Below, in pieces: positions 22,578 through 58,391 of a stretch of DNA of 61,500 bases. The position numbers and the translations under genes were made by a program. The stretch is from assembly GCA_913050185.1 (NCBI GenBank), contig CAJXBA010000004.1, positions 1-61,500 on the forward strand. Direction: 5' to 3'. The notes under the pieces are model-generated. The model did not search any database and had not been told where the DNA came from. It saw nothing but the letters and a program-made list of their open reading frames with translations. How positions within the stretch are numbered: the stretch's first letter is position 1; every line of letters begins with the position of its first letter. The stretch is from an uncultured Pelagibacteraceae bacterium (GTDB lineage: Bacteria > Pseudomonadota > Alphaproteobacteria > Pelagibacterales > Pelagibacteraceae).

Positions 22578-24371
22578 TTACTTTTTCTTTTCTAAAACTT
22601 TAATATTTAACTCTTTTAATTGAGTTTCGTTGACTTTTGAAGGTGCTCCCATTAATAAATCTTCAGCGTTTTGATTCATTGGAAACAGAGTAACTTCGCG
22701 GATGTTTTCCTTATTAGCCAGCAGCATAACAATTCGATCTATTCCAGGAGCTATACCACCATGAGGTGGGGCACCATAAGAAAGTGCCTTGATCATACCT
22801 CCAAATTTTTTGTCAACTTCTTCTTTTGAATAGCCAACTTTTGAAAATACTTTGTACATTAATTCTGGTAAATGATTTCTTATTGCTCCTGATGATATTT
22901 CCGAACCATTACATACCAAGTCGTATTGATACGCGAGTATTGATAAAGGATCAGATTTTTCAAAATTTAATGGATTAATTTGAGGCATTGAAAAAGGGTT
23001 ATGATTGAAATCAATTTTTTTTTCTTTTTCGTCATATTGATACATAGGAAAGTCGATTATCCAACAAAATTCAAACTTATTGTTATCTATAAGGTTAAGT
23101 TCATGACCTAATTTTTGTCTTGCTATTCCAGAAATTTTTTCAGCATTGTTTTTTGTGTCACATGAGAAAAAAATAGAGTCATTTTCCTTTAAATTACAAA
23201 CTTTTATCAAGTCATTAATTGCTCTTTCTGAAAAAAATTTTGCTATTGGTCCTTTGCCAAGAAGATTATTTCCAATTTTCTCTAGAGTTATATAACCTAA
23301 ACCTTTGGCCCCCATTTCTTTAGCCCAATTATTGTACCCATCAAAAAAATTTCTGGGTTTTGATGATGTCTTTGGAGCAGGTATTGCACGCACAATTGCA
23401 CCTTTGGAAATAGATTTTTTAAAAATATCTAATTTGACATCCTCTCTATTAATTATTTCTGTTACATCAAATATCTCTATTGGATTTCTCAAGTCTGGCT
23501 TATCAGTGCCATATTTTAACATCGAATCTTTATATTTGATTCTTTTAAAAGGTGTTTTGGAGACAATTTTATTTTTTCCAAATTCGTTAAATACCTCAAA
23601 AAAAATAGGTTCCAATGTTTTAAAAATATCTTCCTGCTCTACGAAAGACATTTCAATATCTAATTGATAGTGTTCTCCGGGACTCCTATCCGCTCTACTA
23701 TCTTCATCTCTAAAGCAAGGTGCTATTTGAAAATATTTGTCAAAACCAGAAATCATAACCATTTGTTTAAATTGTTGAGGCGCCTGAGGTAGTGCATAAA
23801 ATTTACCGGGGTGCAATCTACTAGGAACTAAAAAATCCCTAGCACCTTCTGGGCTGGAAGCTGCTAATATCGGTGTTTGAAATTCTAAAAAACCACTACT
23901 TATCATTTTATTTCTTATAAAAGAAATTATTTTTGATCTCAAAACAATATTACGATGCATTTCTTCTCGCCTTAAATCTATAAATCTATACTTCAATCTT
24001 ATCTCCTCAGGATAGTCCTGTTCTCCAAAAACGGGCATGGGTAAATCTTTTGCAGCAGATAAAACTTCAAATGATGAAACTGCAATTTCTATTTCTCCTG
24101 TAAATAAATCTTTGTTAATTGTATCAACCGATCTTTTTACAACTTTACCTGATACACAAACTACAGATTCAGGTTTTGCTCTCTCTATTTTCTTAAAAAA
24201 AGTGCTGCTATTTTCTGCAACACACTGTGATAAACCATAATGGTCTCTCAGATCAAAAAAAAGAAGATTCCCATGATCTCTTTTTCTATGAATCCAACCT
24301 GAAAGCTTGACGGCTTTACCAGTATCTCCTTTAGTTAGTTCTGAACACTTATGAGTTCTATATTTGTTCAA
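22578..24371 (-). CDS. aspS: aspartyl-tRNA synthetase, TTG start
   Basis: A 597-aa class II synthetase. The N-terminal OB domain begins [15 protein letters not shown]...[12 protein letters not shown], as in bacterial AspRS. Class II motifs include [24 protein letters not shown] (motif 2 region) and [13 protein letters not shown] (motif 3). The bacterial GAD insert lies between. The start is TTG at 24371-24369, supported by AGAAGGA 6 nt upstream and by alignment of the family N-terminus; no in-frame ATG fits. It follows hda by 20 bp, so DUF2066-hda-aspS is probably one unit. Confidence 0.96.
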
Positions 24372-53647: not shown

Positions 53648-54745
53648 TTAATTTTTTTTGTCGGCTGTAGATTCTTCAACTGCTGGATTTCCTTCGATTT
53701 TTTTTGAAATTAAGCCAGCTTTAGTTCTAATAGCCATTTCAATTTCAGCAGCAACTTTAGTATTTTTCTCTAAGTATACTTTGGCATTCTCTCTACCTTG
53801 GCCAATTTTTTCTCCTTTGTATGCATACCAAGCTCCTGATTTTTCAACTATTCCTACCTTCGAGCCTAAATCAATTAATTCACCAGACTTACTAATACCT
53901 CTTCCATACATTAAATCAAATTCAACCACTTTAAATGGTGGTGAAACTTTGTTTTTAACCACTTTAACTCTAGTAGAATTACCAACAATTTGCTCTTTCT
54001 CTTTAATAGCTCCTATCCTTCTAATATCCATTCTCACTGAAGAATAAAACTTCAAAGCATTACCTCCTGATGTTGTTTCGGGATTACCAAACATAATTCC
54101 AATTTTCATTCTTATCTGATTAATGAATATGACCATGGTATTGGTTTTTGCTATAGAACCAGTTAATTTTCTAAGAGATTGGCTCATCAATCTAGCTTGT
54201 AAACCAACATGATGATCTCCCATTTCGCCTTCTAATTCTGCTCTTGGTGTCAAAGCTGCGACTGAATCAATTACTAAAACTGAAATCGATCCAGATTTAA
54301 TTAGCGTATCAGATATTTCCAAGGCCTGTTCGCCAGTATCTGGTTGTGATATTAAAAGCTCCTCAGTTTTAACACCCAATTTTCTAGCATAAACTGGATC
54401 TAAAGCATGTTCCGCATCAACAAAAGCGCAAATACCACCGGTCTTTTGAGCTTCAGCCAAAACTTGTAAAGCTAAAGTTGTTTTTCCAGATGCCTCTGGT
54501 CCATAAATTTCTACAACTCTTCCCTTGGGAAGTCCCCCAATTCCAAGTGCTAAATCCAAACCTAGCGATCCTGTTGATATAGATTCAATATTTATTGCGG
54601 CTTTTTGACCAAGTTTCATCACTGAACCTTTTCCAAAACTTTCATCTATTTGACTAATTGCTGCTTCTAGAGCTTTATTTTTTTCTTTTATTTCCGCTTC
54701 TTGATTTTTGCTTGATTTCACTACTTTTAAGTTATTTTTAGTCAT
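53648..54745 (-). CDS. recA: recombinase RecA
   Basis: A 365-aa RecA. Walker A is [10 protein letters not shown]; other signatures are [60 protein letters not shown] and the short charged C-terminal tail. It drives recombination and LexA/UmuD self-cleavage. A near-match SOS box lies 50 bp upstream, and a strong terminator follows. It is flanked by TolC and alaS; no recX is present. Confidence 0.98.
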
Positions 54746-54794: not shown

Positions 54795-54809
54795 GTACAC
54801 ATTTTGTTC
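54795..54809 (-). promoter_or_regulatory. putative SOS (LexA) box of recA
   Basis: On the minus strand this reads GAACAAAATGTGTAC, one base away from the alphaproteobacterial SOS motif GAAC-N7-GAAC (equivalently GTTC-N7-GTTC). It shares the first nine bases with the exact SOS box before umuD, in the same orientation relative to the gene. It lies 50-64 bp upstream of the recA ATG. Confidence 0.6.
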
Positions 54810-56528: not shown

Positions 56529-56728
56529 TTTTTCTAATTTAAATTTTTTAACAATATTTTCATAAGGTAGTAATAGTTATCCACATCATTACAAGATCTA
56601 GTTTCGATGTTCATGTTTTGATTCAGTTTAGATTCTTTTTTGGACTCAAAATACAACCAATCGTGTGCATTATGTATATCTTGCTACCTACCTTTTTATA
56701 CTGTAATTTAGAACAAAATAGGAACATT
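56529..56728. other. 200-bp divergent spacer with DnaA box and the umuD control region
   Basis: The largest gap in the window. It contains a perfect DnaA box TTATCCACA (56577-56585), a secondary SOS-like sequence GTTCATGTTTTGATTC (56610-56625) with non-consensus spacing, and the umuD promoter and SOS box. An open frame with a TTG or ATG start from 56618 continues into umuD, but its extra 37 residues do not look like UmuD and are probably not translated. Confidence 0.5.
56681..56725 (+). promoter_or_regulatory. umuDC promoter with exact SOS box
   Basis: TTGCTA (56681-56686), a 17-bp spacer and TAATTT (56704-56709) form a candidate promoter. Directly downstream GAACAAAATAGGAAC (56711-56725) is an exact GAAC-N7-GAAC site, the alphaproteobacterial LexA operator. 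It covers the expected transcription start and the Shine-Dalgarno AGGA, ending 3 bp before the umuD ATG. Confidence 0.75.
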
Positions 56729-57124
56729 ATGAAGCTATTGCTACCATTTCACTTACACAAAGTTGGAGCCGGTTTTCCTTCACCAGCTATAGACTACGTG
56801 GAAGATGACATTGACCTCAACACTCACTTGATAAAAAACATCCCTTCTACATTTCTTATTAGAGTCCAAGGCAAATCTATGAACGGTGTCGGAATTCACA
56901 ATAATGACCTTTTGATAGTAGATAGAAGTTTGAATCCAAAAAATTTTTCTACCGTAATCACCAATGTAAATGAAGAATTAGTTGTAAAAACTTTCATAAA
57001 AGAAAAAGATGAATCATTTCTAACCTCTGGTTCAAAAAAATTGAAAGATAAAATTAATTTAACTGAAAATTCTGAAATCTTTATTTGGGGTGTGGTAACT
57101 TACGTAATTCATGCTTTGCAGTAA
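56729..57124 (+). CDS. umuD: UmuD-like self-cleaving subunit of DNA polymerase V
   Basis: A 131-aa S24 peptidase-type protein starting at the ATG at 56729, supported by AGGA 5 nt upstream. The cleavage site is Ala14-Gly15 in GAGFPSPAIDYVED, and the Ser50/Lys87 dyad lies in QGKSMNG and VVKTF. Spacings of 36 and 37 residues match E. coli UmuD (24, 60, 97) exactly, but the N-terminal arm is about 10 residues shorter. RecA filaments would trigger cleavage to UmuD'. It overlaps umuC by 14 nt. A LexA identity is ruled out by the missing DNA-binding domain. Confidence 0.93.
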   Translation: MKLLLPFHLHKVGAGFPSPAIDYVEDDIDLNTHLIKNIPSTFLIRVQGKSMNGVGIHNNDLLIVDRSLNPKNFSTVITNVNEELVVKTFIKEKDESFLTSGSKKLKDKINLTENSEIFIWGVVTYVIHALQ

Positions 57125-58391
57125 AAATAAAATAGCTTTGGTAGACTGTAACTCGTTTTATGTTTCTTGTGAAAGATTATTCAATACTTCAATAATTAAA
57201 AAACCAGTTATTGTATTATCAAGTAATGATGGATGTGTAATTTCTCGATCAACAGAAGCTAAAACCCTGGGTATTAAAATGGGAGAACCATATTTTAAAG
57301 TAAAAAAAATAGTAAAAGAAAATAACGTAAAAATTTTTTCATCAAATTATTCACTATATGGCGATATATCAAGGAGAGTTATGAAAACGTTAAAACAATT
57401 CTCACCAAAAATAGAAATTTATTCGATTGATGAAGCGTTTTTGGATTTATCTTCAATTAAAGATAAAGATCTGCTTGAGTATGGCAGCATAATTAGAAAG
57501 ACTATTTTGAAATGGACAGGAATACCAACGAGTATTGGTATAGCAACAACAAAAACTTTAAGCAAAATAGCAAACCATGTTGCAAAAAAAGATAGTTTAG
57601 GAGTTATTAATTTAATTAACACGCAACAAATAGATAAAATACTTAAAAAAATCAAAATAAATGATGTTTGGGGAGTTGGACGTCAATTAACTAAATTTTA
57701 TATTAAAAATGGAATAAATACAGCCTATCAGCTTAAAAAAATGCCTGATGCCTGGATTAAAAAAAATACAAATGTTTTCGGAGGACGTACTGTAATGGAA
57801 CTAAAAGGACTATCATGTATTTCTTTGGAAACATATCAAGAAAAAAGAAAAAATTGTTGTGTATCAAGATCGTTTGGAAGAAAAGTTACAAAATTAGAAG
57901 AATTAAATGAATCTGTAACAACACATTGTCTTAACGCAGCAGAAAAAATTAGATTAGATAACCAAACAACAAAAAAAATAACTGTCTTTATAAGAACAAG
58001 TCCTTTTCAAAAGGATAAAAATTATTATGTAAATTCAAAAGATATAGATTTGCCGATCAGAACAAATGATAGTATTGAATTAGTTAAGCAAGCCTTAATT
58101 GCTCTAAAATATATATACAAAAAAGGATACAAATATCAAAAAGTTGGAATAATTTTTTCGGCATTAAGTGATGTTGGTATTTACAAAAAAAATTTATTTT
58201 CATTAATAAATAGTGAAGAAAAGAGAAAAAAATTAATGAAAGCGATTGACTATACAAATAATAAATATGGTCGTAACGCTTTAAGTATTGCACACGCAGG
58301 ACTAAAGAAAAAATGGAACATTAAAAGACAACACTATTCCAAAATTGATACCGCTTGCTTTGATTTTTTACCTATTGTTAAAATCGCTTAA
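57111..58391 (+). CDS. umuC: Y-family DNA polymerase UmuC (Pol V catalytic subunit)
   Basis: A 426-aa translesion polymerase. Active-site residues are Asp12 (ALVDCNSFYVSCE) and Asp107-Glu108 (IYSIDEAFLDL). SSNDGCVISRSTEAKTLGIKMGEPYF and the fingers/thumb region GIPTSIGIATTKTLSKIANHVAKK are typical of UmuC. The C-terminal little finger and UmuC-specific tail are complete. A possible beta-clamp motif is KKNLF near residue 364. It completes an SOS-controlled umuDC operon; its end overlaps the convergent glycosyltransferase by 24 nt. Confidence 0.95.
   Translation: MLCSKNKIALVDCNSFYVSCERLFNTSIIKKPVIVLSSNDGCVISRSTEAKTLGIKMGEPYFKVKKIVKENNVKIFSSNYSLYGDISRRVMKTLKQFSPKIEIYSIDEAFLDLSSIKDKDLLEYGSIIRKTILKWTGIPTSIGIATTKTLSKIANHVAKKDSLGVINLINTQQIDKILKKIKINDVWGVGRQLTKFYIKNGINTAYQLKKMPDAWIKKNTNVFGGRTVMELKGLSCISLETYQEKRKNCCVSRSFGRKVTKLEELNESVTTHCLNAAEKIRLDNQTTKKITVFIRTSPFQKDKNYYVNSKDIDLPIRTNDSIELVKQALIALKYIYKKGYKYQKVGIIFSALSDVGIYKKNLFSLINSEEKRKKLMKAIDYTNNKYGRNALSIAHAGLKKKWNIKRQHYSKIDTACFDFLPIVKIA

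Follow-up and report, generated by a model that had tools for sequence, protein, structure and literature searches.

A conserved putative LexA operator precedes umuDC in a Pelagibacteraceae genome

The umuDC operon (DNA polymerase V) of an uncultured Pelagibacteraceae bacterium is preceded by an exact GAAC-N7-GAAC motif that recurs at the same place in relatives. This site is very probably the LexA operator of the operon, which would place error-prone synthesis under the ordinary LexA/SOS control of Alphaproteobacteria. The motif lies in the window, by which we mean the whole 61,500-nt stretch of DNA that was analysed (29% G+C); the source genome (1.24 Mb in 87 contigs, ~94% complete) carries it as contig C4.

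Results

An exact box lies directly upstream of umuD

The features of the window that bear on this reading are the following.

53648..54745, - strand: recA (TIGR02012 above cut-off), ~2 kb from umuD
54795..54809, - strand: putative variant LexA operator of recA, GAACAAAATGTGTAC, GAAC-N7-GTAC, one mismatch to consensus
56681..56686, + strand: -35-like hexamer TTGCTA of the umuDC promoter, from sequence
56704..56709, + strand: -10-like hexamer TAATTT, 17 bp past the -35, from sequence; weak conservation
56711..56725, + strand: putative LexA operator (SOS box) of umuDC, GAACAAAATAGGAAC, exact GAAC-N7-GAAC, conserved in relatives
56729..57124, + strand: umuD, autoproteolytic subunit of Pol V, 131 aa (Pfam Peptidase_S24; NCBIfam NF007621)
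57111..58391, + strand: umuC, Y-family polymerase, 426 aa (Pfam IMS, IMS_C, DUF4113)

A single A separates TAATTT from GAACAAAATAGGAAC, which starts 18 nt and ends 3 nt upstream of the umuD ATG (56729). Its second half-site occupies the position where the umuD ribosome site would sit, and AGGA or AAGA is present inside the umuD box. A preliminary description of this DNA had placed an exact SOS box at the umuD start, just past a plausible promoter and overlapping the ribosome site; we found all three points to be correct, with the promoter pair being a consensus match only, and the left edge given there (56681) is the first base of TTGCTA. Among relatives, the best TTGACA-like hexamer fell 30-32 nt upstream of the box in 103 of 109 umuD loci, a count that flatters the -35 position in that the offset is the best of 12 positions per locus.

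Both gene products have domains and residues expected of a polymerase V. UmuD scores 134.2 bits against NF007621 (cut-off 110), aligns with UmuD chains in the PDB and has the A14-G15 cleavage pair together with S50 and K87. Only 14 residues precede the cleavage pair, and the S24 domain alone was reported by Pfam at E 0.001. In UmuC, the IMS, IMS_C and DUF4113 domains each exceed their Pfam cut-offs and the residues for catalysis, D12, D107 and E108, are present; its score against NCBIfam NF002955 is 412.5 bits, below the cut-off of 431 (a curated threshold rather than a biological property), and that of the next family is 171.4. The nearest named relative of UmuC, among the matches listed, comes from a Pelagibacteraceae MAG (86% identity), and the remaining named matches listed are almost all from Pelagibacteraceae or SAR11. 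UmuC is the sole Y-family protein found in the genome; neither ImuB nor DinB was seen in this assembly, which is ~94% complete.

In E. coli, umuDC consists of two overlapping genes that encode DNA polymerase V, with the roles given in textbooks. The pair described here resembles it in its gene overlap (14 nt), in the cleavage pair, Ser and Lys of UmuD, and in a UmuC with DUF4113; it differs in the length of UmuD, which is 131 aa compared with 139 in PDB chain 8gmt_B. The LexA box of E. coli is a different, palindromic sequence.

The box is conserved at umuD across relatives

A umuC match was obtained in 31 of 40 genomes, and the loci of up to 30 matches were examined per search. In all 30 umuC loci taken, our own genome among them, umuD is preceded by an exact box. 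The same holds for 79 of 80 named loci (the best 80 of 554), which may overlap with the other genome set; the sequence of the eightieth, L160, begins 4 bases before umuD. The 109 umuD loci amount to 90 distinct 100-nt contexts. Across the named loci (again the best 80 of 554) the box takes 8 forms that vary in the centre only. Half-site conservation is 2.0 bits by construction, rows having been anchored on the exact match, and the locus counts are the real measure. The distance from box start to the umuD ATG is 18 nt in the window's genus, between 15 and 23 nt, most often 19, for the best 80 of 554 named loci, and 32 nt in three loci of family f2, where the match is still exact. By place and conservation the umuD box exceeds chance; the motif match by itself does not clearly do so.

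lexA and recA have putative operators of a similar kind

The preliminary description had pointed to lexA as the gene to look for, and it is present in the genome with a TIGR00498 score above cut-off, with both its DNA-binding and protease parts, and with an exact box of its own. Of 30 lexA loci one is cut, and the other 29 all have an exact box upstream. Thirty further genomes, hand-picked to cover genera, added 28 family loci, all 28 with the box; two of these genomes, G050 and G053, yielded no more than weak matches, confined to the LexA protease part. When the stretches of the 28 loci were shuffled with base composition alone preserved, an exact match appeared in 5/1400.

The lexA operator of the window's genus is an extended array, GAAC-N7-GAAC-N7-GTAC-N7-GTTC, with four half-sites in an 11-nt register (C3:28978-29014 in our own genome). 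This form is strict in 18 of 30 loci, and one more, from another genus, has a 6-nt gap; the 11 loci that lack it comprise ten from family f2 and one that is cut. In the further set, GTTC occurs 16-20 nt past the second GAAC in 28/28 lexA loci. Elsewhere in our own genome, GAACATTAAATGTAC, which equals the middle of the lexA operator, is found between two frames at C2:18767-18781.

Upstream of recA, the variant box was found in 29 of 30 loci (28 identical, one with a changed centre base), and in the thirtieth, L100, the sequence upstream is too short. Eleven of the 30 recA loci, all from family f2, have an additional exact GAAC-N7-GAAC ~121 nt upstream of recA. By eye, the altered GTAC half-site overlaps a -10-like TACATT, which might be the reason that GTAC is kept in the recA box.

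An exact box precedes nrdA and none was found at uvrA

In our own genome, an exact GTTC-N7-GTTC lies 106 nt upstream of nrdA, which encodes the alpha subunit of ribonucleotide reductase (C18:10937-10951). The exact box is present at all 20 family loci that include the gene start, our own genome among them; L211, whose sequence is cut, and L212-L220, which are weak matches from family f2, are outside this count. A further 28 loci, drawn from 8 genera, all have it as well; in that set two weaker matches in G053 (L290, L291) were omitted and two genomes had no match, and base-composition shuffles of its stretches yielded an exact match in 5/1400. In total, 48 of 48 family loci have the box. The box adjoins a -35-like TTGAT, and downstream of it lies a repeat that we take to be NrdR-box-like. 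The divergent neighbour of nrdA is identical in 47 of the 48 loci, where the box could serve that neighbour instead; L284, with a different neighbour, retains the box.

For uvrA, no match with at most 1 mismatch was found in the 150 nt before the start at any of 24 loci (30 taken, 6 dropped with the gene start cut off), and on this evidence we rejected uvrA as a LexA target. These genes are among the few examined as regulon candidates. Two other exact boxes lie near genes named by eye: one is 24 nt before an integrase-like gene beside a tgt-like gene (C9:2239-2253), and one, at 24355-24369, overlaps the first codons of an aspS-like frame (TTG start 24371, - strand).

Alternative explanations for the umuD box

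A chance match with no regulatory role has to be considered in an AT-rich genome, and the motif counts are in keeping with it. The window holds 3 exact matches, compared with a shuffle mean of 0.88 (4 of 100 shuffles reach 3), and 34 matches with at most 1 mismatch versus 29.6 expected. The GAAC-N7-GTAC variant is not enriched either (10 versus 14). Across the whole genome there are 19 exact matches versus 33 for a reversed control pattern, and we rejected the genome-wide count as proof of an operator on these numbers. By eye, the intergenic ones among the 19 are those at lexA, umuD, nrdA and the integrase-like gene; one more overlaps the first aspS codons, and the remainder, most of the 19, lie in coding frames, where they are likely due to chance and were set aside. 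Chance would nevertheless have to produce an equal box at an equal place in 30/30 and 79/80 umuD loci (the latter from the best 80 of 554), and the same motif before lexA in 28/28 loci whose shuffles matched at 5/1400. We therefore consider it extremely improbable that the umuD box is a coincidence.

The stretch could instead be conserved as the ribosome site or 5' leader of umuD, and the AGGA or AAGA within the box, together with its end only 3 nt from the umuD start codon in this genus, would suit such a role. However, the box remains exact at the 32-nt spacing of three family f2 loci, which argues against a mere ribosome site, and the motif also occurs before lexA and, at a distance of ~105 nt, upstream of the nrdA start codon; we regard this explanation as very improbable. 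Another regulator might use the box. UmuD and LexA have the S24 domain in common, and the UmuDAb protein of Acinetobacter, which lacks LexA, provides a precedent for a UmuD-type regulator in the material we drew on from PMC3978071. Here, in contrast, the cleavage pair of UmuD is preceded by only 14 residues, Pfam reports no further domain at E 0.001, and the genome has a lexA gene with the same motif before it, so that control by a regulator other than LexA is, like coincidence, extremely improbable. An operator bound by LexA is the reading that we adopt below.

Discussion

LexA control of umuDC is well supported at the level of sequence, and it is a well-known kind of control that is common to the relatives. 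From established SOS knowledge, LexA at 56711-56725, directly past the -10, would cover the likely transcription start and block the umuDC promoter. RecA filaments on single-stranded DNA would then lead to LexA self-cleavage, and the umuDC operon would be expressed. RecA would also prompt the self-cleavage of UmuD, and cut UmuD together with UmuC would allow copying past lesions. The preliminary description had predicted a LexA-repressed umuDC; the control itself is well supported by the presence of lexA, by the conserved boxes at umuD, lexA and recA, and by the joint rise of these genes in HTCC1062 (PMC12753301, in the part available to us), and that LexA binds the box and represses the operon, and that DNA damage induces it, is what SOS knowledge would lead one to expect.

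The Caulobacter LexA motif is given as GTTC-N7-GTTC in the accessible part of PMC12700426, and the same half-sites and 7-nt spacing are found before umuD, lexA and nrdA here. Unlike that motif, the recA box here is GAAC-N7-GTAC, and four half-sites in register make up the lexA operator of this genus. A further likeness is to the imuA-imuB-imuC (dnaE2) cassette of many Alphaproteobacteria, which is likewise described as LexA-controlled error-prone synthesis in the text available from PMC3901139; in contrast to genomes with that cassette, UmuC is the only Y-family protein found here, in an assembly ~94% complete.

In the open literature searched, which leaves most subscription papers outside it, we found no description of LexA boxes in SAR11 or of LexA control of SAR11 nrdAB. 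We take the SAR11 strain HTCC1062 to be a member of the family tested here. According to the available text of PMC12753301, recA, lexA, umuD and umuC rise together when HTCC1062 is infected by the pelagiphage HTVC027P, as do the three excinuclease genes. In the same infection nrdA is up 3.12 to 8.87 fold and nrdB 2.53 to 5.83 fold, and the host genes dnaE, dnaN, dnaQ, dnaX and dnaG are up with both phages (PMC12753301). In the authors' interpretation the increase in nrd expression serves the replication of phage DNA, and in the part of the paper available to us no nrd genes are identified in HTVC027P; the words promoter and motif are absent from its main text as available (PMC12753301). In Pelagibacter ubique, lexA, recA and mucA share one cluster under late iron stress, as given in the accessible portion of PMC2864753. 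Co-induction alone is not proof of LexA control, because the excinuclease genes rose even though no box was found before uvrA at the 24 loci examined here and because replication genes rose with both phages. The nrd rise may be part of a wider replication response, since the dna genes also rose with both phages.

Ribonucleotide reductase as a member of the SAR11 SOS regulon may be the more interesting lead from these sequences. We tentatively propose, as something possible rather than probable, that SAR11 has a small SOS regulon of lexA, recA, umuDC and the nrdA operon, with nrdA a direct LexA target, and that the rise of nrdAB during HTVC027P infection would reflect host SOS induction feeding deoxynucleotides to the phage, not separate phage reprogramming. 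The nrdA box would thereby provide a simple, testable reason for part of the published phage-infection response.

The preliminary description had also remarked that small AT-rich genomes often lose mutagenic systems of this type. That expectation disagrees with the counts in this group: among 296 genomes of the order with a completeness of at least 85%, 271, our own among them, have a umuC match, as do 139 of the 152 with a completeness of at least 90% and no more than 5% contamination. Some of the 25 genomes lacking a umuC match may reflect assembly gaps. Two genomes, G023 (95% complete) and G052 (85%), have lexA and no umuC match, and may be real secondary losses of umuC or, again, gaps in assembly. 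SAR11 cells, which carry very small genomes, are among the most abundant in the ocean. The retention of umuC in most of the SAR11 genomes examined, with the putative LexA box intact at the loci whose upstream DNA was inspected, suggests that inducible error-prone synthesis pays despite streamlining.
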